From NCBI GenBank assembly GCA_021399445.1, contig JAJTUQ010000004.1, positions 2,480,001 through 2,544,000 on the forward strand: DNA of 64,000 nucleotides, written 5' to 3'. The notes beneath the pieces were generated by a model, which saw only the letters and a program-made list of their open reading frames with translations, was not told where the DNA came from and made no database searches. This stretch comes from Xylogone sp. PMI_703 (taxonomy: Eukaryota > Ascomycota > Leotiomycetes). Shown here in pieces: positions 1 to 64,000 of this stretch. The position numbers and the translations under genes are program-made. The first letter of the stretch is position 1. Every line of letters begins with the position of its first letter.

Positions 1-1402
1 ACTAGGTATGAAATGGCCATCAATGATGTGCCCTGACTTGCCAACTTGTCTCCATGGACAACCTCCCAGAGGAGGGGTCATTCGGAGTGCCTCTGATATG
101 CATGCATTGAGGTATTCACAGTGCCTTAATTTATCGCCTATTTCAATTTCATCTTGTCTTGTAAAGGTACTGCGGACCTCCTTTGCTAGTTTGTCTTGAA
201 CCTTCTGATTCCTAGAGATATAGAATATTATTGCACATAGCGCTACTGCTGATGTTTCATACCCTATTATTTGTAAGTGAGTTTCTTCATATTTGCTAGA
301 GAGAACTTACCAGCCATCAAAAGCGTATGTGCTTCCGCTAATAAGGCAGTCGAGCTCAATTTCTGAGCAGACGCTGTTAGATATGAAAGAATGCTTTCAC
401 CCGGGCATGATTTCTCAAGGTGTTCCTTAATGATAATTTTGGTAAAGGATAGGAGGTTATGGCTTCCTTTAACGGATTTCTTGAAAAGAAGCTTGTCTAG
501 TCTTCCGAGGACTAACAGCGGAGCATAGATCAGAACATTAAGCCGAATATTTGCCTCTTCAATATCAGAGGTAATGTGACGATAGGTGGTTTTCTCCAAA
601 AGGTTAAAGTTCGTATCAAAAAGGAGGTCAGAAATAATGTCGAATGTTAACCAATTAATCCATTCTGACATGTTCACTGGGGCACTCCATTCGCTCTCTC
701 CTATCTGATAGACCAGGTTGCAAAATTTGTTGACATGGTCGAGCAGCTTGGGCTCAAATCGCTTTATTGCAATTGCCGTAAACCCTGGGGAGACAATTCG
801 ACGACGCTTTGCATGTTCCACTTTGTCATGAATGGTACCAATGCTAGCAAACTTTTCGTTACGGCCTTCAAAGGCTGGGTGCTTGGAAATATTCTTGCCC
901 AAGATATATATATCTAACATCGTTAATATAATGGTATTGCATCAGAAACGTACTAACGAAGGATAATAATCAAATTACCTTTAATTCCTGTTGCTGTGTT
1001 GAAAAGCAAGTGGTTTGGGCCATATCGAACTATTGGGCCTGCGGAGAAATATCTCAGTAGAGTTTCCCTACGGATATTGGATGATGCTCTCTCTTCCAAC
1101 TTACCGTATTTTTCATGGCATCGTTGTATGTCTAAATGCTGGTCTCCGTTCCAAGCATAGTATATCTCTCGAAGATTGGTGAATTTTGCAGCTGGAGGTC
1201 CGGGATATTTTGCTAAGGGGTGGAAGTATATCTGGTATGCGCCATATATTATAGCCTGTAAGACGCATCTTAGATATTACGAGAATTTTGCGAAAGCTTG
1301 ACAATATGTGCAGTAAGGCCGACTTACACTGAGTATAATGCCTATGAAAATCTGGCATACCGGCGAAGTTGCCAGCAGAAAATTTTCTACTACGCCCAAC
1401 AT
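1..1402 (-). CDS. cytochrome P450 monooxygenase, 3' end outside window
   Basis: Heme-thiolate monooxygenase, probably ER-anchored. Five exons were assembled: 1402-1328, 1255-1105, 1038-979, 913-311 and 263 to beyond base 1. The N-terminus has a hydrophobic anchor and the proline-rich hinge HPLAKYPGPPAAKF. The I-helix motif LLMAGYETSA appears only after removing the intron at 264-310. The ExxR motif (EALR) and the following TPPLGGCPWR are visible near the left edge. The heme-binding Cys loop lies outside the window, so completeness cannot be judged. It stands tail-outward from the acyltransferase at 2333 and is likely the oxidising enzyme of the lipid gene group at 1-9.6 kb. The CYP family cannot be assigned from sequence alone. 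Confidence 0.93.
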
Positions 1403-2332
1403 ATTATTTTTTAGTGAGCAGTATAGTTTGTATGATCAATTTACTCTGGCTATGGGCTATATAAATACTCCTCCCTCAGCTCTTGCATGATCCACGCGAT
1501 TGCCCAATTTGGACCCCATAGCTAGCATTACACCTAGTAAACATCCCGATAAAACGACGAGCCGCGATGGTTAATCCACGCGCGTCAATTGAAATCCGTT
1601 GAATATCATAATACGCGTTATGACATATGTACGTCTGACATCCCTGAAAGATTGGAGCTGAGATTTTCAAGTCGTGCAGACTTTTTGTTTGTTCATGATC
1701 TGCAGGATGCTCAGCTGCCAGCGGAAATGTGCACTTCCACCACATTCTGGCTGCATGCCGCATGGAAAACTCATTCTGCCGAATCACTGCGCCTCTAATC
1801 ATCTCAGAGCAGGATGATGCTTGTCTGAGACATGCAATATGTGTATCTGCATCTTTTGCCACAGCGGCCTAAGTCCGTTGGGGTCAGCATAATGCTGTTA
1901 AATTTACGGAGGTACCTATCAGCAGATAGCTTCGGGCGGGTCGGGATTGACCGTAGAAGTGGGACGCTGAAGATATCCAAGATAGGACTAAGTAAATCAG
2001 TAATTACAGTATCCACTGCAGCTCGCATCAGCTACACGAGCTTCGACCGCATGCGGGTCCTTCCCTAAAACAGCAGCAGTTCCGATGAGCTTTGTCTGAC
2101 ATCAGGCCGGCACTTTTGTTGCCTCTTCTCGACATACGAGCAGATAGAGCAAAGACTTATCTAAAGTTGTACTAATTAGTTATGAATTGAATTTCGTATC
2201 TGATTTATATAGATAAAATATAACTGTTATTGCCAGAAATCCCCATGCCTTGTTGCGGAACCCCTCAATATCCATTTTTTTTTTAAGTCTTTTTGAAAGA
2301 GATTAGTTGTCACGACTTCTACAACAGAAAAC
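1403..2332. promoter_or_regulatory. intergenic, divergent promoter region
   Basis: This 930-base spacer separates the P450 and acyltransferase, which are transcribed away from each other, so it probably carries both promoters. A T-rich run and A-rich leader lie just before the ATG at 2333. Short open stretches on both strands have no family likeness. No repeat or RNA gene was seen. Confidence 0.4.
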
Positions 2333-3653
2333 ATGAATACGATACTGCATATCTGGATTTCATATACGATCTGCTCATCGATTTTGCTTCTGGCTTTGAA
2401 TTTTCCCTATATCTGTTACCGGAATGCTGCAACCAGATATTGTACGTTTCTGGCATCAGTTATTGCGGCACTTGCTGTCATCAGCTTCTCGAGGGATGAG
2501 AGCCCACTTATCACCTATTTTATGGGCATAATATCCTCTTATTATGTGCTCAGAATCTATATCCTCATAATTATCCATACTCCTTACAAGGAGTTCTCAA
2601 GGCTTCAATTCAAGCCAGCAAAGGACGGCGGCAAGGACAAAGCCAATCCGGAAGAACATAACCACCAGATCTATTGGGAGACATTCCCACAAACAGCTTC
2701 TCTCCATCGTCTTTTGTGGACATTAGACCTGGTGACGAACGTTCGGAGAATTGGTTGGAGATACACCGGAGAGCCCCGACCCGATATAGCAGGTGATGGT
2801 CATGACTCTTATCCAGTCTCTCTTCTCGAGAATCGTCTTATGGTCTGCTCTAAATTAGCAAGCTATTTTTGTCGATTCATACTCAACGTCGTATATATCA
2901 ACATATACCAAGCGTGGCTTTATCCGTCATGGGAGCTTAAGCTCCATATGGAGTGTGGGAACGTCCTACTCTGCAATTCATTTCTCACGGTTTGGAGCAC
3001 GGCTTTGGATACCTTGGCAACCACCGCTGCGTTTGCTAGCTTAATTGACTTGGTCAACTGCACATCCTATATTTTGTTCTACTTGCAGCTTTTCGTAAGG
3101 TCACGAACACCGATACTCTACGTTACACAGTTGAGCCCCTGGGGCTCTTGGCACAGCTTGTGTAACAACGGCTTAGCAGGTAAGGCTGCAGATTTGCATT
3201 CTCCACGCGGCAGTTGGATATTAATCAGCACTAGGGTTCTGGGGCACGTTCTGGCACAATTATTTCCAAAGTGACTTTCGCACCGTTATTATACACACTG
3301 TCCCCTCACCGACCAACCCCAAGTCTAGGTTTCGAGCTGCGGCGAAGTATATACGACTATACTTGGTGTTTGCTCTCTCTGGACTAATGCACCTCTGTGG
3401 TGCACTCATGCTTGGAGAGAATAGTATGCCATTTCGGAAGCAATTCATGTTTTTTATCTGGCAGGCAATTGGGATTTCTATTCAGTCAGTTTTCCAAATA
3501 GCGCTGCGGTCGACGAAGGACAGGTTCTCATATACGTGGAAAACCTTCAATTTCTTATTCTGTATATCATGGTTAGCATTAACTTTTCCTATTCTTTTTG
3601 ATGACTTTAAGAGCTGTGGGATTTGGCAACACCGAGTGTTACAGTTATGGTGA
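2333..3653 (+). CDS. wax-synthase-like membrane O-acyltransferase
   Basis: Polytopic membrane protein of 421 residues in two exons (2333-3179 and 3235-3653). Splicing joins LAG to create the motif GFWGTFWHNYFQSDFR, matching the FWGxxWHQ-type signature of fungal wax-synthase-domain acyltransferases, with its conserved His. Several hydrophobic helices precede the motif, and a conserved-looking helix LSGLMHLCGALMLGE follows it. Family members in fungal secondary metabolism transfer acetyl or longer acyl groups from acyl-CoA to a hydroxyl. Here the acceptor could be an oxidised fatty-acid product made by the neighbouring P450, elongase and desaturase; that is inference. The reading frame is intact and the spliced length is a multiple of three. 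Confidence 0.85.
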
Positions 3654-4184
3654 AGCGGCACACCCTGTAGTGGCCTCGCATGCAGGCGATCAGCGTGTTA
3701 TGCAAACTCAAATGTAAAATATACGGAGCGCAGTGCAGTTTAGTCATCGGTAATGCATGATGCAATTGAGATGAGAAAAGTTCCTAGGAGCATTCCAAAG
3801 TCTGAAAAAGTTGAAGATAGCCAATCCTCAGAAGCCACTAAGGCGGAGATGAAGAGAAATAAGAGCCGATGTGTCTCAGTAGTAGCCCATATTTAAAGGA
3901 TAGCCAGCTTTACATTGTCTCTGTGACATAATTAAGTTAATTGAGCTAACGTACTTGAGATTATACCATAATTGTCGTTGTGTACTATCCCGATTTTTGC
4001 TACCCTTTTGTTACACTGCAGCACATGGCTTGTGTACATGTAATGTTCATGCCGTATATTGTCTTACCCAGTGCACAGAATCAAAGCCACCACATCATGT
4101 CTTAGAACCGAATGCCCTCAACCGGTCCTTAAAGCTTTATGGCAAATCCCATGCACTCCATCCGGGGAAGTGCCACTTCGCACC
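3654..4184. other. intergenic between convergent genes
   Basis: Shared 3' region of the acyltransferase and elongase, which converge. I see no coding signal, repeat or RNA gene. Confidence 0.4.
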
Positions 4185-5359
4185 CTAATCCCGCTTAATG
4201 CCGTCGGGCTTCAAACCAGAACGTTTACCAGCATAACTCCTCAGAAAAAAGTTCAGAAATAGTACGAGAAGTGGGAGGAGATAAAGGACGTTCAAGCAGA
4301 TGGCAAACGCCTCCCCCTTAGTGTCAACACAGGTAATAAGAGACAATCCGTCAAGTTGACGTCTATCCACCCGAGTCAAGGACAGGGGTATATCAATGCC
4401 ATACGACATGAATAAACTTAGGGTACCGTAGACAATGGCCACAATGATCTGCAATATTTGAAGTGTAGTCAGGCTTGCTTTTGCCACTTTTGGCACTCGG
4501 ACCTCGAACAAGGTGAGGGTGTAATAAGTATACTTGAAGAATTTCATCTAAGTTAGCCCCTCCTGGCACCATACACCGGTCCACGTTGTGATGGATCTAG
4601 ACTTACCATTAGCGTATGAATTCCAGAGTTCATAAAGATAAAACTCCATAGTGGTGCAGCCATATAGCGAACTCCAGCCCATACGCAGAGTATTGCGCCT
4701 GTGTGATGATAGATCTGCAACCAAGTTGGTGATCTTCCTCGAGATAGGAGAATAGCGGTATCTATCAGCTCATATATTTTGCTGAGATAAAATAACCATC
4801 CATAAGCAGCCAGGCCTTCACTCCACAGACGCCCTGTTAATGCGAGATCCGAGGCTGAATTGTTCAACGATGCTGATCGCAGTAATCCATTTGGGGTAAA
4901 CCTAGCGGCATTTCCAACACCTTGTGGACCATGGACTTTGCATAGCATATCAACCACTGCAAGTAATCTTCCTTCGGCGCGAGCGTTGCTCCAGGCAGCT
5001 CCAAATACACGTAACAAGACTCCAGAGAAGCCTACAAACAGGAAAGCCGAGAATAGGGCAAGAGTGATATTGTATGCAACAACACACCGGAAGAATCCTC
5101 CTGTCTTGCTCACTGCCCAGGGTTTGTTGCCTCTATCTTTATTATACCGTCTTAGATACAATGCGAGGGTGGCGTAGATACAAGCAACCGTAAGCGGAGT
5201 TTTCGTGTCCAGAGACTGATGGTAAAATGAGTATTTGCCAAAGGGGGATCCATATTTGAGGTAGCTGGTTGCGGAATCAATGAAGCCAGTAGAGTAGTTG
5301 TAAGGCATAAGTTGAAATTTCTGTACGAATGGAAAATTTGAAGTGATAGGAGAATACAT
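4185..5359 (-). CDS. ELO-family fatty acid elongase (3-ketoacyl-CoA synthase) with QxxHH box
   Basis: ER membrane condensing enzyme of 371 residues in two exons (5359-4607 and 4547-4185). The first ATG is at 5359. ELO signatures run in order: KIYELIDTAILL (KxxExxDT), LQIYHHTG, NSGIHTLMMKFF (the NxxxHxxMYxYY region) and TTLQILQ (TxxQxxQ). The usual HxxHH box reads QIYHH, with Gln replacing the first His. The same substitution is, as I recall, known in the Isochrysis C18 delta-9 PUFA elongase IgASE1. The C-terminus ends with a basic ER-type tail. It is divergent from the cytochrome-b5 desaturase, so elongation and front-end desaturation are probably co-expressed. Chain-length specificity cannot be read from the sequence. 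Confidence 0.93.
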
Positions 5360-6249
5360 ATTCACAGTTTCAATGATCTCTTATTCTTTTCTTTTTGAAA
5401 AAATTGCAATCTAGCATATGAGTATACATTGGATTCAGCTATGATTTCAAGCCTGATTAAATATCTTTTCGTGGCGTAGAGGGGAGCAAAAAAGAAGGTA
5501 AATTATCTAGATTATTCTTGATTTCGGTTATGGCATGAGTTTACAGAATTGTGACGAGTACCAGAGCAGCTGAGATGTGGGTAATGCTAGCTCGAGACAG
5601 GGCTTTGCAGATGACCCCAGTCCTAGATCCACTGTGTCCACTTAGAGGTGTGTTGGGCTGAAAAGTACTCACTACTAGCCGAGCAGCCGTATCGGTGATT
5701 TTAACGTGTTATGGCCCTGTGTTTATGACCCGCTGATCATGATTCGTTGGCCAATTAATTCATTCTAAAAAGAAAAATGCGTTGAATAGAGGCAGTGCTA
5801 TGAGGCATGGCGATAGGCGTACTTATGTTAACGCCACACTGTCATGTTGTGGCTCTGAGGTCCCTGTCCCCACAGTTCTATCTTTTAAACATCGATAGTA
5901 GCATAATTTAACCGGTTATGGAAATTGTCGACAAAGCCATGACCCAGGGTAGGCGTCGTCAATGTGATACATTCTGTCACTATCGTTAAAGCCCAACCGG
6001 ATGATTCCTCGAACCTCACACCTGCACGGGTCCGCTGAGGATTCACTACAATGATGCAATAATAAAAATTCTACAGTGGTTAAATTGAGATCTTGAGAAC
6101 ATATAAATTCGTACCCATCTGGCAGTTTTACGATCAATTGACTGTTTTAAACCTCATAAGCTTTTATCAAGTTCGACCACTGTTCTCTGGGTTATTATAT
6201 TGCAATCCACTACGCCATTACCTATTGAGAAGTATCATTTCTATCCCTA
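5360..6249. promoter_or_regulatory. divergent promoter region of elongase and desaturase
   Basis: An 890-base spacer between two divergent lipid genes, likely a bidirectional promoter. A stretch open on the minus strand (5916-6137) lacks an ATG and has no recognisable domain, although a plausible intron (GTACGA to TTGTAG) lies in it. It may be a decayed gene piece. Nothing else was seen. Confidence 0.4.
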
Positions 6250-8035
6250 ATGGCTTCTACAGTGGTATCTGAAAATCTTCTAACAACATATTCACGAGAA
6301 TCACAACATCTAACGGCACATACATAGGAACCTATTACTGGTTATACAACGAAAGAGTTACGAGAATCTGTTAAGAACGGCAAATGCCTCGTTGCGGTTC
6401 GTGGATATGTAAGCAACTTTGCTATTTACTGAGAGTTAAATGTCATTACTGATTGATACGATAGGTATATGACTTGTCAGGTTTTGTCAGGTTTCACCCT
6501 GGAGGGGCTTCCAGACTTAACATGGCTGCCGGAAGGGACGTAACGGTTGTATTTGAGACAACCCACGATGAGTCAGCCTTTAAAGTTCTAAGGTAATCAT
6601 GATTTATAATTTCTATGGACGATATAAACACTCTAACCAGAAATCAGCAAGTATCGTGTTGGGCAGCTCCTTGACAATGAGTTCCCGACATTCGCACCGC
6701 CCAACCAATTTGCACGTACTCTAAGAACTGTAAGATAAAGCACCAGTATAAATATATATACGATTTGACTAACGCTCAACTATACCAGAGGGTGAACAGC
6801 TATTTCAAAATTACTGGGAAAGACCCTAAATATGCACCCAGCGCGTTAGTTCGTCAAATGATACCTATTACTGGTATCATCGTCTGTTATATCTTGTTAT
6901 ATTGGAGTAGCTATGTTCGCTCCAGCCTTCTTGCTACTTCCCTTTTAAGCATATTATGGGCATGGTGCTACGTTGGCTTTACTGTGCACTGGGTGCACGA
7001 CAGTTCACATTCAGCAATCACCCACAATCCAAAAATATGGGATGCGATGGGATTGATATATAATTTTGTCATGGGTTACTCTGATATCATGTGGTTCTAC
7101 AAGCATGGTATGTGTTCCACAAGGAATCCAGATCCATTCGTTCTCGTCTCATCGATGATTAGTATTAGGACACCACCCATATACGAACATCGAAGGTGCG
7201 GATCCTGATATCTCAACCGAACCGTTCTCGATTACAAGATTTATGCCATCTCAAAAGTGGCTCCCTATTTATGAGCTGCAGCATATATACGCTCCGATAC
7301 TTTACAGCCAACTCACCCATTTTGTCAAACTCCAAGATATTATCTCCTATTTGTCCGGAAAGCTTGATAAAATTCATATGAATCCATTTACGAAGTCGCA
7401 AATCATTGTATTTTGGTCAGGCAAGGTTAGTTGTTATAATATATCAATGGATACCACATCTCGGCTTTTGAAAGTACATACACTAAATTTTCTGTCTCTA
7501 GGCATTCTTCTTTGTATATAGATGCCTTATTCCTTACCTCTATTCCGCCAGCAGTGGTCATAGGATAATAAGTACATTTATTTGCACGGAAATGATGATA
7601 TCTTGGATGGCCGCATTTATGTTTGAGTCAAGCCACGTTGTTGAGGACATTCTATGGCCCTTGCCCGAACAAGGTGGCCAGATGAGCCAAGATTGGGTGC
7701 AATTGCAAATAGAAACTGCTCAAGACTACGCCCATGATGATTGGTTGACCACTTTCCTAACCGGGTCACTTAATTACCAGGCTATTCACCATGTCTTCCC
7801 ACAGGTAATTTTATAAATTCTTTTGAAGTCATATATGAGGACTCTGAATACAGGATCAATGGCTAATCAAAATACTTTCACATAGATTAATCAGATATAC
7901 TATCCTGAGATTGCGGGTATAGTAAAATCTATATGCGATGAGTATGGTGTTAAATACAGAGTTAGAAGTTCAATCCTCGAGGCTTTTGGGGACCATTTGC
8001 ATCTACTAAAGAAGCTAGGTGTTGATAAAAGGTGA
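6250..8035 (+). CDS. cytochrome b5-fused front-end fatty acid desaturase, delta-5-like
   Basis: Eight exons (6250-6264, 6328-6408, 6465-6592, 6648-6729, 6789-7107, 7163-7425, 7502-7804, 7886-8035) give 446 residues in a closed frame. The first exon codes only MASTV; without its splice a TAG would interrupt the frame. The N-terminal cytochrome b5 domain has FVRFHPGGAS. The three di-iron boxes are HDSSH, HVLGHH and QAIHH, the last with the Gln diagnostic of front-end desaturases. Box two is correct only if the acceptor ends at 7162 rather than at the next TAG. Stretches such as GHHPYTNI, WPLP and LNYQAIHH resemble Mortierella delta-5 desaturase. It probably inserts a double bond between an existing one and the carboxyl end of an acyl chain, using its own b5 domain as electron donor in the ER membrane. 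Confidence 0.93.
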
Positions 8036-8502
8036 TAGGGGCTCTTATTTACCGACTTCTTGAAATCGCGGGCATGACTTCAGTTACAGCATAAACTATG
8101 AGGTCACTATCCCGGCTTCTCTTGTTAGATTGAATTTACATATCACAAAGACTTACAGTTGCAATCTCGTCGGAGTTGTTCGTCGTATATAGTGAGAGAA
8201 GACTAAACATGGACATAAATTTGTGTCAAATACAAATAAAGCCTCAACACTATACCAGTTAATCACTGAACCCCTCTAATCTACAAGTGAAAGCCACTGC
8301 CTTTACAGCTATAAGCTCGTAGCAGCTAGCAATATGATGCCTCGGCCCTCTCTACTGGCCTTCCCTGCCGTACAGGTCTTCAGCACCCTAACATCTTTAG
8401 AGATTGAGCATCTATCAGCTTCCTAAGTTTAAATAGTTTCCACAGAAGTAAAGTCCCAACAATATCTTTGATAATAAAAGTAGCTCTGTCTTATCTATTA
8501 TA
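8036..8502. other. intergenic between convergent genes
   Basis: 3' flanks of the desaturase and SDR. I see no gene, repeat or RNA in it. Confidence 0.4.
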
Positions 8503-9569
8503 TCAAGTGGCGTGGCGTTTTGGGGTCTCAAGACTGCTGTCGACTTTCAAGCAGTCCGTCCAAATCTCATTCCATAGCTTTTTTCTAATCTCCTTGCCCT
8601 TCGGTGTACTTGTGATTGGGGCACGCCTGTATAACGTTAGTGAGGTGAGATCTATTCTGTGTGTCAGAGACACAGATAGAGGAATACTTACTTTGCAACC
8701 TTGTTATCACTCAGATATTTTCCATGTGACTCTTCCCCAACAACACCCATAGCGTGGAGATATGTCTTTGACCCTTCCTCAGCATTTCGTGCTGTGAAGA
8801 AAAAGAGAACATTAAAGATTGCCCTGAACCAAGCCGGGAAATCCCCAAACCCAGTCTTGACCATACCTGGTGATAGCTCGTTGACAATCACCTTTTTTGG
8901 GTCTACGTACTTTGCTAACTCCTCAACAAACATTGTAACAAGGAGTTTTGAATCAGCGTATCGAGATGGCGCAATGAAATTCTTCTCGTTGTCATAATGT
9001 GCCAATACTTTGTCGTCAGCCTCAATAGGCTTTTTATCGAGAGTGTGGTCAAACTGCACGAAGCTGCCTACCCAGGTCATCCGCGATGGCACACCTTTAG
9101 TAGCTGCGGTCTTCTCTAAAGTAGGTAATAACTCAAAAGACAATAGAGCCTGAGAGAGAAGGTTGACTTGAATTGTCTTTTCGTGACCTGAATTTGCAAT
9201 AATATCCCACTTCAGACTTCCCGTCCCAGCATTCAAGAGTAGCATGTCTAAATTCCCGTAGTAACGCTGCTTGATTACTTTGGAGAACTGGAGAACACTG
9301 TCATAATCCTCCAGATTGAGCTGTAGAATTGTGATTACTCCATGCGGATTCGCCCTTTTCACTTCCGGATCGGAAAGAAGGTTTGACTTGGCAGTCTCTT
9401 GTTTAGATACTGAACGAACACCTGCAATTATTTCCTTTGCGCCATGGAGAAGGAGGAGCTTGGTAGCGGCGAGGCCAATCCCAGCTGAAGCACCGGTAAT
9501 TAAGATAGTTTTGTCGCGGAAGCTGAGAGAGGAAGGAATGCTGAGCTTCGGTTGTATGAAAGGAGGCAT
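8503..9569 (-). CDS. short-chain dehydrogenase/reductase
   Basis: Two exons (9569-8692 and 8626-8503) encode 333 residues. The NAD(P)-binding motif TGASAGIG lies near residue 27, NAG follows (LLLNAGTG), then the catalytic Ser (WVGSFVQFD) and the YxxxK pair in SRYADSKL. A C-terminal extension in exon 2 (KGKEIRKKLWNEIW) is typical of fungal retinol-dehydrogenase-like SDRs acting in metabolite clusters. Substrate probably an alcohol or ketone; not determinable here. As the last member of the lipid group it could oxidise a hydroxyl put in by the P450, which is inference from position. The frame is intact. Confidence 0.93.
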
Positions 9570-14847: not shown

Positions 14848-16317
<1,470 letters not shown>

Positions 16318-17118
16318 GATTTTGGCAGATGGTCTCTGATCGAACCTCTGTGAGAACAGGAGAAGTGGGGAGAGGAGGGTCTTGAGAAGTTGCAGTAAAT
16401 ATACATTGCACCGGTCTACCGATGTATGCTAGTAGGGACCCTTGTTTCCAACTGCACGTATAGTAGTAGATCTATCGCTCTTTGAAGCCAGGGTAAGCTG
16501 TTCGGAGTAAGGACTTAGTTAACTGGTGCTTCACATCCCTGTTTATCGTGCCTTATATAGATGCCACTTCCCAGGAGGAATACAACTAAAACGTACGAAC
16601 CGGATACACACCTTGACAACTTAGAAGTCAGTATATAGATTGACGCTCGAAGTGAATAAGATGGAATTGAGTAGTATCATTCTATACATGTTCATACGAT
16701 CTTTGCGCAGGTAAATTTGCTACCTACTCTAACTCTGATCTTTCATCCACACAACAGGTAATAGATCCTCGGTTACCTTATAACTGAATCGTTTCATTCA
16801 TGTAATTTTACCTACGATATTGCTAAGTCTTTACCTATTTGTAAATTATCAAACACCAGAGATAGGTGATACGTTGAAAAATTGGCACAGTGATTCTACC
16901 ATTTCTACGCGGTACTTACGATCCATATTCTGCTATTAATATCTCAGCCACGATTCTGCCTCGCATTGATCGGTTCAAAAAGCCACCGACTCAGTACGGG
17001 TTGATATGCGGAGGTAGAACAAACACGGGATACAACTCTTGCAAACGTGTCATACATTGCCTTCAATCAGCTACTATACAATAACTGACAGCTTTGGAAC
17101 ATTACTAAGTCGCTCGCG
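16318..17118. promoter_or_regulatory. divergent promoter region
   Basis: An 800-base spacer between the monooxygenase and the hypothetical gene at 17119, which diverge. No gene-like signal was seen. Confidence 0.35.
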
Positions 17119-38413: not shown

Positions 38414-39478
38414 TTCTTGACTTTGAGGATCATTGCTGAGTGGTGTTGGTGGATTGTGATGAGCGGCCGGGTAGCCTTTAGAGGAGGGTATAAAAGAACC
38501 ATAATCAGAGCATCTGTCATCTATTGGTACGCTCGCAAGATTCGAGCTTCGCCATCCAACTGTCTCAACGTGAGAACACCTCGAGCATTGCTTAGCTGTA
38601 CTCTGTTCCTTTGGCTCATGACGTGGGTGAGAAAGGTCTTCATGAATTCTGCACAGATGTTCGTCTACTTCAGTATTCCCTAGGATTTCTGCTAGCTGTA
38701 CTGAGCGACACTAGTTAGTTCTTATTGAAGGTCATCCTGGATTTTGAATCTAGGGGAGAAAAGCCCCACCTCACATATTTTACTCCGGTTCGCCAACAAT
38801 GCCGAGAGATTCTTGTGCACATCTAGGCCACGTCGTCGTAACTTCTTACGATGAGCCGGAAAAGTACAGCACGACTCAGTTTTGGCATAAGTTAAATAAG
38901 ATAGACGTTTCATATCACCTGAATGTTATTGAATGTAAGGAGACCTAGCAGGTTAGTCATTATTCAAGACTCCTATTTTGTCGTCTTTCTAGTTAATTTT
39001 GACTGGAATCATTTAAATCACGGAAAGAGACGAGACATTGTTATAAACCTATTGCACTGCTCACAAGCTCTATTGGAAGGAACGGTATCTCCTACCACCG
39101 AGGAAAAGCTCATGATGTACTGTCCTACGTCTGGGTTTTTAGTTCAAATAATAATTATATAAACTTTAACGTGTATAGAATTCATAGTAATTTTCTATTT
39201 TTCAATTAAATTTAAATTAGGTGAAATATAATAGTTTAAAGGGAGGGTGTTAAGTTGGGGGAAATGCTATTTTTAGAAATCGCGTAGACTTATGTCCACT
39301 CACTGTACATCCCCATGTATTACCAGAAAGAGGCGTATTAGTCCGGTCTTATCACGTTTCCTAGGATCGGATTAAGTGTACTCAGATAAAATCCTCTCTT
39401 TTATATGTTGAACTTTATTAAATTTAAAGATCTCTCTATATATTTATATCATCTTGGTACAAACCCCACCCTGATAAT
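38414..39478. other. intergenic
   Basis: One kb with short meaningless open stretches and an AT-rich part at 39160-39250. It contains the promoter of the aminotransferase; a TATATATTTATAT run lies about 40 bases before its ATG. Confidence 0.4.
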
Positions 39479-40723
39479 ATGCCTTCAGAGATTCATTCTC
39501 AAACACTTCTGACCGACGAAAATTTCGACTTCTCTCCTAATTACGATATTCCCAACATTCGAGCACTCGTCCCTGTCGTTTGTAAAGGAAATACTACTTA
39601 TCTTAATGCTTCCATGCAACATCCAATACATGACCGTGTTCGGAATGCAATTAACGAATTTCTCGACCAAGCACAGACCAAACTCGATCCCAAGCCGCAA
39701 TGGCAAGCAAAGACAGAAGCCACTAGAGAACTTCTTGGACTCTTTCTCAATGTCTCCCCCGACACACTGTCGTTTACTCGGGATACAACTGAAGGCATGA
39801 ATCTATTTCAGAGGTCAGTGCCTTTTTCTGAAGGGGACAACGTTGTGCTTTTGGACGTAGAACACGTCAACCAAGTGTACGGCTGGATGGCACTCAAGGA
39901 CGCTGGCCTGGATGTACGTTTCGTTCCAACGCAAGAAGATGCCTGTGCAACTTCGGCCACTTTCATGGATTATGTGAATCATCGTACCCGTGCTATCGGA
40001 CTATCATCTGTTATGTTTCATTCGGGCCAGATGAACAACATTAAAGAAATCTGTGACGTCTTTCGGCCACGTGGAATTCATATTCTGGTGGATCTGACAC
40101 AGCATATTGGTATAATGCCTATTGATCTCGTTGATCTTGGGGTATCTGCCGCTGCATTTAGCTGTCACAAGGCATTAGGTTGTCCAACCGGCCTTGGCGT
40201 TTTATACATTGATCCAGACACTTTACCCACCCTGAAGACAACACCCCCCCCCCCCCCCCCCCCAATGGTTAGTGGTGGGGCCGTTTCCAACATGTCGAAA
40301 AGTCGTGTCATTGACCAAAACATCCTCTATCATAATTCAACACGGCGTTACGAACACATGAACCCTGCATTTCTCCAAATAGCAGCTTTACATGCATCGT
40401 TGAGATTTCTCATATATGAAGTTGGTGTTTCAAAAATTGAGTGTCACTTTCGAGCTTTGGGTCGTCAACTTATTTTAGCCATGGAGCCAATTGGCGTTGA
40501 AATTATTGGGAGTCGGATGGCAAAAGAAAGGGCGCCTCACATATACGTTTTGAAGCTGTCACATCCGGCGTGGCAAGCACATTTCAAGGAGGATAATATA
40601 GCTCTTTCGCATTACTATTCAGGGACTAGGCTATCGTTTGGGTTCTACAATAATATGAGTGATATTGCAAGCGTCGTATCGTCACTACAGAGAGGAGTAT
40701 GTAGTGGTATCCCCCTTATTTAA
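39479..40723 (+). CDS. class V PLP-dependent aminotransferase / cysteine-desulfurase-like
   Basis: Single-exon 414-residue protein of fold type I. It starts with a substrate-loop region (TTYLNASMQHPIHDRVR), then SFTRDTTEGMNLF for phosphate binding and HILVDLTQHIGIMPIDL, where Asp normally holds the pyridine nitrogen. The Schiff-base Lys is in SAAAFSCHKALGCPTGLGVL. A run of seven prolines, encoded by 20 consecutive C, lies between strand and helix just after LYIDPDTLPTLK. Family members include isopenicillin N epimerase-like enzymes and cysteine lyases in metabolite clusters. Substrate unknown. The frame is open as read, but the C tract makes this sensitive to slippage or sequencing error. Confidence 0.88.
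   Translation: MPSEIHSQTLLTDENFDFSPNYDIPNIRALVPVVCKGNTTYLNASMQHPIHDRVRNAINEFLDQAQTKLDPKPQWQAKTEATRELLGLFLNVSPDTLSFTRDTTEGMNLFQRSVPFSEGDNVVLLDVEHVNQVYGWMALKDAGLDVRFVPTQEDACATSATFMDYVNHRTRAIGLSSVMFHSGQMNNIKEICDVFRPRGIHILVDLTQHIGIMPIDLVDLGVSAAAFSCHKALGCPTGLGVLYIDPDTLPTLKTTPPPPPPPMVSGGAVSNMSKSRVIDQNILYHNSTRRYEHMNPAFLQIAALHASLRFLIYEVGVSKIECHFRALGRQLILAMEPIGVEIIGSRMAKERAPHIYVLKLSHPAWQAHFKEDNIALSHYYSGTRLSFGFYNNMSDIASVVSSLQRGVCSGIPLI
40244..40263 (+). repeat. homopolymeric C20 tract inside a coding region
   Basis: Twenty consecutive C bases counted directly from the sequence, coding for proline inside the class V aminotransferase. Confidence 0.9.
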
Positions 40724-41627
40724 ATCACTTATATTATTTTTGAAATACAATCTACATATTTTTCTAGATTTATCAATTTTCTTCTTCTTTTGTATAACTA
40801 ACCTTAAACTAAACTACAAAACTGGTGCATGAAACCGTACATCGCCACCTTGATGTGAATCTACTTGTTACGGTGATAGGGTTCTTAGATGTAGAGACTG
40901 CAGTCTTAGAAGTCAAATCAATATCGGCAGCACTTGGATAAGGAACCTGTTATTTGTAGTTACAGTTTAAGGGTAAGTTTCTGTGTGCACACAGACTTAT
41001 GTCCACCCATGTAAATGCTGTAGTAATTTTGGTATTAACGTATTGCCGAAAACCCCCTTCTTTCGCTCTTCGATTCCCCCGTTCTCTCTGGGCTTTTCAG
41101 CTCATTTCGAAGGCAAAGAGAATTCTGATCGCGCCAACCAGACCCAGAGTAAATAAGTTACCCATATTATCTCACACAAGTTCTCGAGTTCGCTGATCGC
41201 TCTGTTCTGATCCACATGTATATCATGCCTCACACGACACTGAAATCGGGTAATCGTTGACGGGAAATTCTCTCCCGCGAGCCAACTCGAGATGTGAAGT
41301 GCTCAGCGCGGCAAAGAGATATCTGCCGACAACGGTCGGAACCCCTTCGTTACATTATCCGCACTTTTTTCCAGGATGGACATCACTTGATCAAAAGGTC
41401 ATGTGTCCGTGTGCGGTACTATCAGATTTGGTTGGACGCTGTCTAAGTTGCACTGTTGGCAGCCACTTGATCTTATATCGTACCTTTGATCGAGCTTCTT
41501 CCCTTCATTTATGAAATCATTCCTATTTTAAATTTCTTCCTATATTTGACCTCCTCTAGACGTACCTGAAGGAACCAAGGTGATAATACGCTTGGGATCC
41601 TTGACCTTAGCGGCAATAACAACTATT
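40724..41627. other. intergenic
   Basis: Spacer between two plus-strand genes. Nothing convincing was seen; it includes the promoter of the FAD monooxygenase. Confidence 0.4.
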
Positions 41628-43104
41628 ATGAGCGGTGCCGAAAGCAACGCCAATAGCCATGGGTCAGACCAGCCATTCAACATAGCCATTGTGGGAGGTG
41701 GCATCGTCGGTCTGGTTCTGGCGCTCGGCCTCGTCAGGCGCAACATCCCGGTAACAATCTATGAGCAGTCAAGTGGCTTCCGCGAGATCGGTGCCGGCCT
41801 GGTTTTCGCCTCGAACGCCGTGAGGGCCATGAAGCTCATTGATGCGCGCCTCATTGATGCCTTAGACAATATCGCCACATTTAACGGCGATGAGGAAGCG
41901 CCGGACTTCTTCCGGTTCCTGGACGGGTACCACCACAATGGTGCACCTGATGACACAACAGAGAAGCTGCTATTCACGCTCTACACAGGCCACCGCGGGT
42001 TGCGCGGTTGCCACCGGGCACAAATGATGGACCAGCTTGCCAGATTCCTTCCAGCAGACTGCGTGGTGTTCGGAAAGCGGCTGGAGTCATTGGAGGAGGC
42101 TGGCGATGATCGGAGAGTGATATTGAAATTCGAGGACGGCACAACTGCGCAGGCTGATGCAGGTAAGTCGAGTTCGAAATCTCCCCCCTTTCCAGCACCC
42201 CTTGAGAGTATTTTTCCTTCTGTCGATGTAGAAGAGCTGCTAAGATCCTGTTCTTTGCTGGTGGATAGTCATAGGCTGCGATGGCATCAAGTCGCGGGTG
42301 CGGCAGCTACTACTGGGCAAGGACAACCCGGCGTCGTACCCACAGTACACGCACAAATTCGTATATCGGGGACTCGTAGCCATGGATAAGGCGGAAGAAG
42401 CCCTGGGACACTACAAAGCTCACAACCTACATTTTCACATGGGGCCGGGGGCACATATTCTCACATATCCCGTAGACAATCACAAGGTAATGAACGTCAC
42501 AGCTGTGGTCAGCGATCCGAATGACTGGGACAGCATAGCGGGCATGACAGCACCAGCTTCGCGCGACGAGGTGGCTGCAGCCTTTGGTAGCTGGTCACCA
42601 GGAGTGCGAGCTATTGTGAACCTGCTGTCAGACCCGCTGGACAAATGGGGCATCTTCGATTCCTACAATCACCCAGCGCCAACATATACTCGCGGTCGTG
42701 TTTGTCTGGCTGGCGATGCTGCGCATGCCTCGTCGCCACATCATGGGGCCGGGGCTAGCATGGGCGTGGAGGACGCCCTGGCACTGTCAAGTCTGCTAGA
42801 GCGAGTTGTCGATTCCCTTTCTACACGCATGGATGTGAGCAAGGCCCATGCACTGCGGGCAGCATTTGCTGCGTACGATCAGGTACGGCGTGAGCGGACG
42901 CAGTGGTTGGTGGGCAGTAGTCGCGACGTGTGTGAGACGTACCACTGGATCAACCCCCAGTGTGGCTTTGATCCAGACAAATGCCTCGCTGACATACGCT
43001 GGCGCAATCACCGGATATGGCACTTTGATCTCGACTACATGATGGGTGAGGCTGGTGAGGAGTACAAGCGGTTGCTCCGGGTGACGGACAAAGCCCGAAT
43101 ATAG
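41628..43104 (+). CDS. FAD-dependent aromatic monooxygenase (salicylate hydroxylase-like)
   Basis: Two exons (41628-42162 and 42269-43104) give 456 residues. The ATG at 41628 is the first in frame. The Rossmann motif is IAIVGGGIVGLVLALGL, the DG motif VIGCDGIKSRVRQLL is formed across the intron, and the GD motif is VCLAGDAAHASSPHHGAGAS. The C-terminus has WINPQCGFDPDKC and DYMMGE, shared with fungal salicylate 1-monooxygenase-like proteins. NADH-dependent ring hydroxylation is expected, producing catechol- or gentisate-type compounds. With the gentisate dioxygenase 5 kb downstream it could supply a dihydroxylated aromatic acid; this link is inferred from position. GC content is higher than in the flanks. 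Confidence 0.93.
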
Positions 43105-49626: not shown

Positions 49627-51569
49627 TTAGTGGTGGTTACGTGCGTCCGCTAGAATGTCGTAGGATGCTTTTTGACTGATCATATAGGTTGGGGCAATGG
49701 GGAAAAAGCCAGGAACTCTTGGGAAGACGCTGGCATCAACCACGCGCAGTCCATCGGTGCCGCGAACACGAAATTTGTTGTCCAAGACTGCCTCGGGATC
49801 AGCATCGGGGCCAATGCGGCATGTGCAGGTTGGATGATGGCCAAAGGCTTGTCCTTCAATCCAGTTCCTATCAGCATCGGGATCGGGGCAGGTTCCATCT
49901 TCGGCTGGGCCGGAGGGACATGGAGGCTCGATGACTTCAGCACCAATGCTGGCGTAAAGCCGACGAAGGCGAGCAACGAGCTCGAGCATAGCCTGAATAT
50001 CGACATCATTGTCGCCGCTGAAGAAGTTAAAGTTGATTTCTGGCCGATCACGTGGGTCGTTGGTGCGTAGTCGAACCCAGCCCTTAATGTTCTGCGGATT
50101 GCCTTTGACGAGACCGATACCCCAAGTGCCCGGTACATCCTGCGGCAAGTTCGTGTTGGTCTGGTTACTTGGCCAGAAGCCTCGGAACGGTCCGCCGGCA
50201 TCTTGGAGGATCCACATGTCATTCTCACCGTCGACGCTGTGGCTCGTCTTGAGGAAAGGGTAGCCTAGCACGCCTGTTGCGTTCTCGAATACACTGCTGA
50301 CGGCAATGGTAGGGAACTCCTCGTTGTCATCCAGATGTTCACCGACGCCCGGGGAATCAACAATGACCTTAATACCTAGCGACTCCAGGTGCTGCCGGGG
50401 GCCAATACCACTGAGCATAAGGATTTGCGGGGAGTTGAACGCGCCTCCGGATACAATGATCTCACGGCGGGCTTTAGCCTTACGACGCTCGCCGGGTGTA
50501 TTGTCATCATGGCGGACATCGGCACGGTAGAGGGACTTGCCTTTAAGATATTCGACGCCAACTGCCCGAGGCTTGTGGCCAGTGGTATCAAACACAATTC
50601 GGGATACAAGAGAGTCAAGCGACACTGTCAAGGGATATTTGCCGCTGGCAACGGTGGCTAGGATCAAGTCACGGGCGCTGAACCGTGTGGTGTTGGCGTA
50701 GCCGTGCAGGACGAGGCCGTACATGCCCTCCTCCTTGTCACGTCGTGGGTTGGCTTCATTCGGGTCCCTGAGCACCAACTCGACAGGAGACTCGGTCTGG
50801 CCGATGTCGTCAATCAAGGCCGTGATAATGGGGTTCGTAACCTCGGTTTCCTCAACAAGTCGCTGGGGCATGTAAGTCTGAAAATAGCCATCGAAACCAT
50901 GACCGGGAGTGCCACGGGGCAGGTAGTTGTTGTGCTCGATTTGTTCCCAGATGGCCATCATCTTGTCGGAGCTGCACATAGTTAAAGATGTTAGTGTGCT
51001 ATTGGCCTAAATAGAGGAAAATGGTCTCACCTCCAGCTGTCATCGTCAAGAAGCTCAGCCCACTCGTCCCACATTGATCGAGGTGGCGCGATCGCAGAGA
51101 GGCCATTGATCATAGATGATCCACCAAGTGTCGCACCGCTGGGATAGTAGATTCCAAGGAGCTCAGAACCCTCCGGCGGGTTATCATGTCCAACCCAATA
51201 CTGACCCTCAGGAGTCATATAGGTGAGATGTCTGAATTCGAGATTCCTCGGGTCGCCATCAGGGTAATGTTGGCAAAAGAAATCCCAGGTCAGGCCTGTC
51301 GGGTACCCACTGCCAATAATCGGCACGTTCGTCCCGTTATAAGTTGACGCATCGCCGGCTTCTAGGAGCAATATAGAATATCCAGCCCGCGCTAGGTTGG
51401 TAGCCACCGGGCTGCCTCCCGCACCACTGCCGATAACAACGTAGTCATACTCATCGGTCTTCCCTGGAGCATGGCCATGCGGAGAGCCAAAGGTTGTTAC
51501 TATGAGAGAACTGATGCTGAGAAGCCCAGCAAGTCCCAGGCGTCTGGGTAACAGGTTTGTCGACCTCAT
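49627..51569 (-). CDS. secreted GMC oxidoreductase (aryl-alcohol/glucose oxidase family)
   Basis: Two exons (51569-51031 and 50971-49627) encode 627 residues. A signal peptide (LGLAGLLSISSLIVTTFGSP) is followed by the FAD fold YDYVVIGSGAGGSPVATNLA and the GMC signature 1 YYPSGATLGGSSMINGL. Signature 2 is GAFNSPQILMLSGIGP. The catalytic His is in AFGHHPTCTCRIG, and the second catalytic position lies in FPIAPTYMISQKAS, where His or Asn is usual. It oxidises an alcohol or sugar outside the cell with oxygen or another acceptor. It could detoxify or make an aromatic aldehyde for the neighbouring pathway, or simply belong to lignocellulose decay. The frame is intact. Confidence 0.93.
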
Positions 51570-62634: not shown

Positions 62635-63141
62635 CTTGTCATGGCTAGGGAACGCGTTATATTAGGAGGTTGCCTCAGCGGCAGCTAGCGAGCCCAGATG
62701 CACTGTGGACTGCGCCACACAAGCCACACTGCCTCGAGACTGTGTAAGGCGAATCCACACTTGCTCCCTACGAACATCTGTCATTGGCGGGGCTCGGGTC
62801 CCGATTTACTTCCCGTAGATCTGGATCGGAATTTAACAACTAGCCCGAGTGATTTGACCGTGAACCAATCGTCTAATTTAAGTTAAAGTTCTTCTAAAAT
62901 CATGCAGCCTCATTTTTATACGACATCGCTGGAGATGGGGACTATTAGGAAACAGCAGTAAGTGTATATAACGACTGATTTCAAACTCTTCACTACTTCT
63001 TTTTCAATCATTGATATCTTTATTCTCGGCAGGTAATTTGACTTTGTACCTAACCCTACTTTAAACTCCATTTATAACACTTGCTACATTTCTCTTTCAG
63101 TTATAGGCTCTGTGGGCTAGTTCATCACAAGACTGAGCAAC
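62635..63141. promoter_or_regulatory. divergent promoter region
   Basis: Spacer between the F-box and monooxygenase genes, which diverge. An unspliced leader intron (GTAATT to TTTCAG, about 63034-63100) is possible. No other signal was seen. Confidence 0.35.
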
Positions 63142-64000
63142 ATGGCAGCAAATAAACTACCAGTCCTTATCATTGGAAGCGGCATAGCCGGCTTGTCCCT
63201 CGCAAAAATGCTCAGCCATCATGGTATTGCCGTCTCTGTTTTCGAAGCCTCCCCTGCGAGTCGTACTCAAGGCTACGGGATCACCATCCGGGAATTTGCA
63301 TACGGTCCATTGTTGAAAGAGCTTGGTTATACTCCGGATCAGCTGAAAAAAGCAAGTGCAACAGACAGAGAGATAGGGGGTGTTGGAAAGATCGATGCAT
63401 CCTTACGGGATGCATATACAGGCGAAGCTCTGGTGAAAGCTCCCCCAACTAAGAATGACCAAGGGCAGGAATTTTATCGTGCCAATCGAAATGCTCTCAG
63501 AGGCTGGCTTTGTGAAGGCGTTGATATTCACTTTGATCATAAATTGGTCTCTTTTGAGATCGATAAGCAAGAGGGGTTTGTTACAGCTCAATTCCAGAAT
63601 GGCAAATCTGTAATCGGATGCCTTCTTGTTGCTGCCGATGGTATGCACTCAACTGGTAAGTCGTATCGTCATAGATAAACTCTTCCCAATTAATCTTTTG
63701 TGCTGATATTGAAATGTAATATTTAGTACGTAAGCAAAGGCTACCAGCGATCCAACCTAAAATTCTCCCGGCAGTCGTATACAACGGCGAGCTGCACATG
63801 ACTCGGCCTTCATTTGATGAAGAGTTATCTTCATATATGACCGATACAAACGTAATTATCGGAGCCGGCGACAATTCCAATTTCGGCATCACCATCACGA
63901 ATATCACCTCTGCACAAGTAGATCTCAATTGGTCGTTCACTCGGCCAGTGAAAGACGATAGCGACCCTCTATATAATCCATCTGAAAGTCTGGATGACCA
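63142..64000 (+). CDS. FAD-dependent monooxygenase, 3' end outside window
   Basis: Two exons are visible (63142-63655 and 63727 to the window edge). The Rossmann motif is VLIIGSGIAGLSLAKML and the DG motif LLVAADGMHST is completed across the intron to VRKQRLPAIQP. The GD motif lies beyond the edge. It belongs to the same large fungal group A family as the genes at 14.8 and 41.6 kb, but to a different branch, closer to metabolite-cluster hydroxylases. The substrate is unknown. Context (regulator and SDR 3-5 kb to the left) allows a small cluster that continues outside the window. Confidence 0.9.

Follow-up and report, generated by a model that had tools for sequence, protein, structure and literature searches.

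A specialised elongase and a Delta5-type front-end desaturase, head to head, form the core of a candidate lipid gene cluster in Xylogone

Five enzyme genes stand side by side at the left end of a 64,000-base stretch of DNA (the window) from the fungus Xylogone sp. PMI_703 (Leotiomycetes), and at their centre a gene for an ELO-family elongase lies head to head with one for a desaturase fused to cytochrome b5. Our best explanation of these two genes, drawn from sequence and held with middling confidence, is a lipid module in which an elongase distinct from the housekeeping copy and a Delta5-kind desaturase would together make a non-methylene-interrupted C20 acid. That elongase and desaturase form a functional pair is likely; that all five genes form one pathway falls just short of an even chance. 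A preliminary description of this DNA had proposed a lipid natural-product cluster without a polyketide synthase (PKS), composed of a P450, an acyltransferase, the elongase, the desaturase and a short-chain dehydrogenase/reductase (SDR). That observation stands, and the case for its core is better than was then apparent: the pair is specialised, a second ascomycete class has relatives of both members, and the desaturase is of a type reported as missing from Dikarya.

The desaturase gene (6250..8035, forward strand, seven introns) encodes 446 amino acids, in which an N-terminal cytochrome b5 domain with the haem motif HPGG (residue 43) is fused to an FA_desaturase domain (Pfam: FA_desaturase 88 bits, Cyt-b5 73) with three intact histidine boxes, HDSSH at 172, HVLGHH at 208-213 and QAIHH at 389, the third of the form Q..HH. 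Over its whole length the model is 100% identical to an NCBI protein, P0001, whose record is named 'delta-5 desaturase'. A protein search returned 65 matches, only two of them with a Dikarya name: the protein itself and a relative from Talaromyces proteolyticus (63% identical). The others, at about 40% identity or less, come from Mortierella relatives, chytrids, Blastocladiomycota, arbuscular mycorrhizal fungi and Entomophthora relatives, as well as from Holozoa, a midge and unnamed metagenome proteins. The search requires common five-residue words and distant relatives could escape it, yet matches of 25-40% were reached. As T. proteolyticus is a eurotiomycete, the two carriers belong to different classes. 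The accessible text of a 2023 survey gives the Delta5 desaturase as not present in Dikarya (PMC10629195), which supports, for Delta5, the earlier point that this group normally lacks the elongase and front-end desaturase pair of C20 polyunsaturated fatty acid synthesis, and we found no literature report of a Delta5 desaturase in Ascomycota in a search outside which most subscription papers fall.

Phylogeny places the two ascomycete desaturases together. In a tree of 59 rows (seven fragment matches dropped) they are sisters (100/100) inside a 47-row group of b5-type Delta5 proteins (95/91), which is separate from the genome's own sphingolipid-type desaturase, the outgroup row, and from 11 rows without b5 (metagenome or unnamed; two are named linoleoyl-CoA desaturase). 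On this evidence the window protein falls with the clade of Delta5 enzymes from early-diverging fungi and Holozoa. Where the ascomycete pair sits within the 47-row group is weakly supported, both here and in a second tree of 39 rows built without 15 of the proteins P0002-P0054, all of P0055-P0065 and the sphingolipid-type row; in the second tree, constraints uniting the pair with four Mortierella-type rows (p-AU, from the approximately unbiased test, 0.247), six Glomeromycotina (0.257) or five Blastocladiomycota (0.062) were not rejected. As to origin, the trees fit both an ancient gene lost many times and horizontal transfer, and cannot tell these apart. One metagenome fragment, P0034 (289 amino acids, from a 905-base contig), is 52% identical to the desaturase over 61% of it and may be a nearer relative of the ascomycete pair than other members of the Delta5 group are; it is not among the matches carrying the signature residues described next.

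The two ascomycete desaturases also share a set of derived residues. We aligned 32 of the 65 matches and counted a column as conserved where at least 90% of the 30 other relatives agree; 57 columns are invariant across all 32, haem and histidine-box residues included. Both ascomycetes are altered at 23 of 122 conserved columns, 18 of the 23 to the same new residue; at the other 99, at least one member of the pair keeps the conserved residue. The same count in six other pairs gave 0, 0, 0, 7, 2 and 1 (of 109-122 columns), and when the other 64 matches, some of them fragments, were compared pairwise, none of the 63 beyond T. proteolyticus showed more than 3 of the 18 signature residues. Since the two ascomycetes themselves served to define the signature, their own 18 of 18 carries no weight, whereas the low counts in the 63 are informative. 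Several altered positions (193, 194, 197, 207 and 331-339) flank the histidine boxes, and according to the accessible portion of a study of Torreya, histidine-box swaps change the product (PMC10006428). The common derived residues point to an altered specificity of the predicted enzyme, and their retention across two lineages that have diverged by 37% suggests a maintained function of unspecified nature. An AlphaFold model of the desaturase has a mean pLDDT (predicted local distance difference test) of 90; a fold search with it gave two chloroplast FtsHi motor-complex chains as best whole-length matches (template modelling score, TM, 0.54-0.55), followed by cytochrome b5 domains, and added little.

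The elongase gene (4185..5359, reverse strand, one intron at 4606-4533) encodes 366 amino acids with the motifs KIYELIDT, LQIYHH, NSGIHTLMYTYY and TTLQILQ, that is, an ELO domain with HXXHH and its flanking motifs (Pfam ELO 166 bits, scored on a first gene model five residues longer). Profile comparison found one solved relative, ELOVL7 (6y7f), and the structural model is weaker than that of the desaturase (mean pLDDT 75.5). The named relatives of the window elongase are ascomycetes. The genome also holds one intact ordinary copy (on contig C12), an ordinary copy with a broken frame (C5) and, on C19 and C21, two more distant loci. The elongase tree has 27 rows: the window elongase, the resident C12 elongase and 25 matches other than P0066, without the broken copy on C5 and the loci on C19 and C21. 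It joins the window elongase to a partial T. proteolyticus elongase as sisters (100/100), and a tree uniting it with the resident C12 copy alone is rejected (p-AU 9.7e-5). On these grounds the window elongase is not the housekeeping copy and lies outside the housekeeping ascomycete ELO clade. The elongase pair is also altered in both members at 10 of 59 conserved columns (20 rows). The preliminary description had named placement in ordinary housekeeping clades as telling against its cluster, and the trees put both elongase and desaturase outside such clades. P0066, the NCBI model of the window elongase (341 amino acids), was replaced in the tree by the 366-residue model; it omits 25 residues that the resident elongase and most aligned relatives keep, and the longer model fits better. 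The broken copy (L017:4281-5286) lies on a 359-kb contig and is otherwise an ordinary ascomycete ELO gene.

Linkage of the pair probably extends to the second species. The T. proteolyticus records for elongase and desaturase both give a contig of 1,203,809 bases, and the same record field gives, correctly, 6,927,901 for the contig of the window (C20, in a genome of 50.1 Mb; the window is its bases 2,480,001-2,544,000). The two T. proteolyticus genes thus probably lie on one contig.

What the pair might make depends on the acyl chains at hand. Searches of the genome, which score only the best candidates, turned up neither a Delta6 nor a Delta8 acyl front-end desaturase. A Mortierella Delta5 query against all six frames returned the window gene and b5 domains and no second front-end acyl desaturase; the only other desaturase with an N-terminal b5 seen in the genome has motifs of the sphingolipid Delta8 type. 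By motif and domain order we take the remaining set to be two Ole1-type Delta9 desaturases (b5 C-terminal), three of the Delta12/omega-3 type, one sphingolipid Delta4-type and that one sphingolipid Delta8-type enzyme. With three Delta12/omega-3-like desaturases, 18:2 should be available. We infer a two-step route. The elongase would add two carbons to linoleoyl (or alpha-linolenoyl) coenzyme A to give 20:2 (or 20:3), and the desaturase would then introduce a double bond towards the carboxyl end. With neither a Delta6 nor a Delta8 acyl front-end desaturase found, this route should lead to a non-methylene-interrupted C20 acid of sciadonic (20:3 Delta5,11,14) or juniperonic type rather than to arachidonate. 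Delta5 regiospecificity and elongation of C18 Delta9 polyunsaturated fatty acids (PUFAs) are putative activities. The accessible text on Torreya describes a Delta9-elongase and a Delta5-desaturase that make sciadonic acid (PMC10006428). A lipoxygenase search of the genome gave no match and is uninformative, as none of 14 control genomes matched either.

Around the pair stand three further genes, each intact once spliced; all five have GT-AG introns and open frames, and each Pfam best match exceeds its curated cut-off. A cytochrome P450 gene (1..1402, reverse strand, 514 amino acids, four introns; p450, 214 bits) crosses the left edge of the window and is completed by 392 bases beyond it (L013), a correction to the preliminary description; CYP24A1 (3k9v) and CYP3A4 are the solved proteins nearest to it in sequence. 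A gap of 930 bp (1403..2332) divides it from the acyltransferase gene (2333..3653, forward strand, 423 amino acids, one intron), for which the general family assignment can now be narrowed to membrane O-acyltransferases of the MBOAT_2 family (53 bits). Elongase and desaturase are 890 bp apart (5360..6249), and the SDR gene (8503..9569, reverse strand, 333 amino acids, one intron at 8691-8627; adh_short, 79 bits) closes the group. The two divergent pairs that had been described, P450/MBOAT and elongase/desaturase, are thus present, and MBOAT/elongase and desaturase/SDR are convergent. Adjacency of non-homologous enzyme genes, as here, is one trait of a fungal biosynthetic cluster, and the P450, MBOAT and SDR could plausibly oxidise, esterify and reduce the acyl chain or a derivative of it.

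The description of the cluster as lacking a PKS also holds. Neither a ketoacyl-synthase nor a condensation domain lies nearby, the closest listed on the contig being about 527 kb and about 268 kb from the window, respectively, so the neighbourhood lacks the PKS or nonribosomal peptide synthetase (NRPS) core of a typical fungal cluster; a fatty-acid-based cluster does not need one. Left of the P450 are an RNase H gene and an SDR (L013:5375-6388), then a second P450 (L012:6233-7647), exons of a major facilitator superfamily (MFS) transporter (L012:2414-3841) and an O-methyltransferase (L011:3822-4793); the second P450, MFS exons, O-methyltransferase and SDR, which fall within 30 kb of the window's left edge, are possibly further cluster members, or unrelated. 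Right of the SDR at 8503..9569 lie a thioredoxin gene and an MFS-like gene, the latter under its family cut-off. Elsewhere the window is redox-rich, with three FAD/NAD-binding (monooxygenase-like) genes, a class-V aminotransferase and a GMC oxidoreductase at 15385-16428, 39428-40723, 41550-42389, 49627-51006 and 63121-63678. Upstream regions were compared for common words. Those of P450/MBOAT and elongase/desaturase have one common 12-mer (11 of 100 shuffles as good) and five 10-mers (9 of 100), those of elongase/desaturase and SDR have 13 common 9-mers (7 of 100), and all three have 18 common 7-mers (17 of 100) and one 8-mer (63 of 100); we do not count any of these as evidence.

Several points weigh against a two-gene module for a non-methylene-interrupted C20 acid, or against its extension to the neighbours. 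The derived residues of the desaturase could reflect another regiochemistry than Delta5. The T. proteolyticus elongase has a long end branch (1.55), and both T. proteolyticus records are labelled partial and place the genes on a same-sized contig, which need not mean adjacency. Complete absence of synteny in relatives, which was to have told against a cluster, probably does not hold for elongase and desaturase. For the MBOAT the search was empty, so that linkage of this gene gains no support: 7998 candidates sharing most words gave no match at E <= 0.001, a result that a relative below an estimated 50-60% identity could escape and that is no evidence of absence in T. proteolyticus. The window MBOAT was itself not returned, though other proteins of its contig are in the database; it is probably absent there as a protein, and may be unannotated in the source. 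Its own genome holds only one other match, 25% identical. Finally, no common promoter word clearly beats shuffles.

An alternative is that only elongase and desaturase belong together, in the making of ordinary membrane or storage PUFAs, with P450, MBOAT and SDR as chance neighbours in a redox-rich region. This has a sizeable minority chance: only these two genes have counterparts found on one same-sized contig elsewhere, further P450, SDR, MFS and FAD-enzyme genes are strewn along the region, and the promoters share no convincing word. Against chance stands the arrangement of P450/MBOAT and elongase/desaturase as two consecutive divergent pairs, a layout common in fungal clusters.

Rather unlikely, in our view, is a real pair acting on another acyl chain, with a desaturase shifted in substrate or position, an MBOAT that esterifies the dedicated acyl group tailored by elongase and desaturase onto a separate scaffold, and a P450 and SDR that finish the natural product. 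The 23 of 122 positions altered in both ascomycetes, several flanking the histidine boxes, would fit such a shift, as would the effect of box swaps in the Torreya study (PMC10006428, accessible portion), and P450, MBOAT_2 and SDR do adjoin the pair; however, no scaffold enzyme of the ketoacyl-synthase or condensation kind is listed closer than about 268 kb, in a search that did not extend to terpene synthases, and any conservation of the neighbours is hypothetical. We are similarly doubtful of a wider proposal, that two distantly related ascomycetes keep a neofunctionalised elongase/desaturase cluster making a non-methylene-interrupted or otherwise unknown C20 acid, from which P450, MBOAT and SDR would yield an eicosanoid-like product without a PKS.

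An arachidonic-type pathway, with a normal Delta5 enzyme acting on dihomo-gamma-linolenate, is quite improbable. The desaturase does stand in the tree beside Delta5 proteins of Mortierella relatives, which the accessible texts describe as arachidonate makers (PMC10629195, PMC9503022), but with no Delta6 or Delta8 acyl desaturase among the best candidates scored in the genome, the usual C20 PUFA route, and arachidonate with it, is unlikely. Contamination of the assembly by an early-diverging fungus is barely credible: the two ascomycetes aside, named desaturase matches are from early-diverging fungi, Holozoa and other non-Dikarya, but the gene sits inside a 6.9-Mb contig, a context that makes contamination very unlikely, and its closest relative and the named relatives of the adjoining elongase are ascomycetes.

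A Delta5-type desaturase beside its own elongase runs counter to the absence from Dikarya given in the accessible survey text (PMC10629195). The pair offers a compact, directly testable system for how C20 acids might form with no Delta6 step. It is also a candidate route to lipid natural products of fungi, one that would be missed by searches that look for PKS or NRPS enzymes.

Among known systems, the Delta5 (acyl-lipid 8-3) desaturases of Mortierella relatives, Glomeromycotina, Blastocladiomycota and Holozoa have in common with the window desaturase the b5 fusion, HPGG and three histidine boxes with Q..HH, and full-length matches are about 37-42% identical to it; unlike them, the ascomycete pair has a long stem branch, of 0.98 changes per column in one tree and 1.47 in the other, has 23 common changes at 122 conserved sites and, in Xylogone, has no Delta6 partner found in the genome. 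Within the genome, the sphingolipid Delta8-type desaturase (C1:1726336-1727157, named by motif) likewise joins an N-terminal b5 to a front-end desaturase, but is 27.5% identical over a 287-residue alignment and differs around the histidine boxes. The housekeeping ascomycete elongase of Xylogone (C12:2850626-2851800, 462-residue model) has the family and motifs of the window elongase, with aligned segments 45-55% identical, whereas the window copy lies outside its clade with T. proteolyticus (100/100) and is without the long C-terminal tail. Torreya grandis uses the same two families, a Delta9-elongase and a Delta5-desaturase, in two steps without Delta6 (PMC10006428); the accessible part of that text does not mention gene clustering, and it describes a desaturase clade near sphingolipid desaturases, whereas the window desaturase groups with opisthokont Delta5 proteins.

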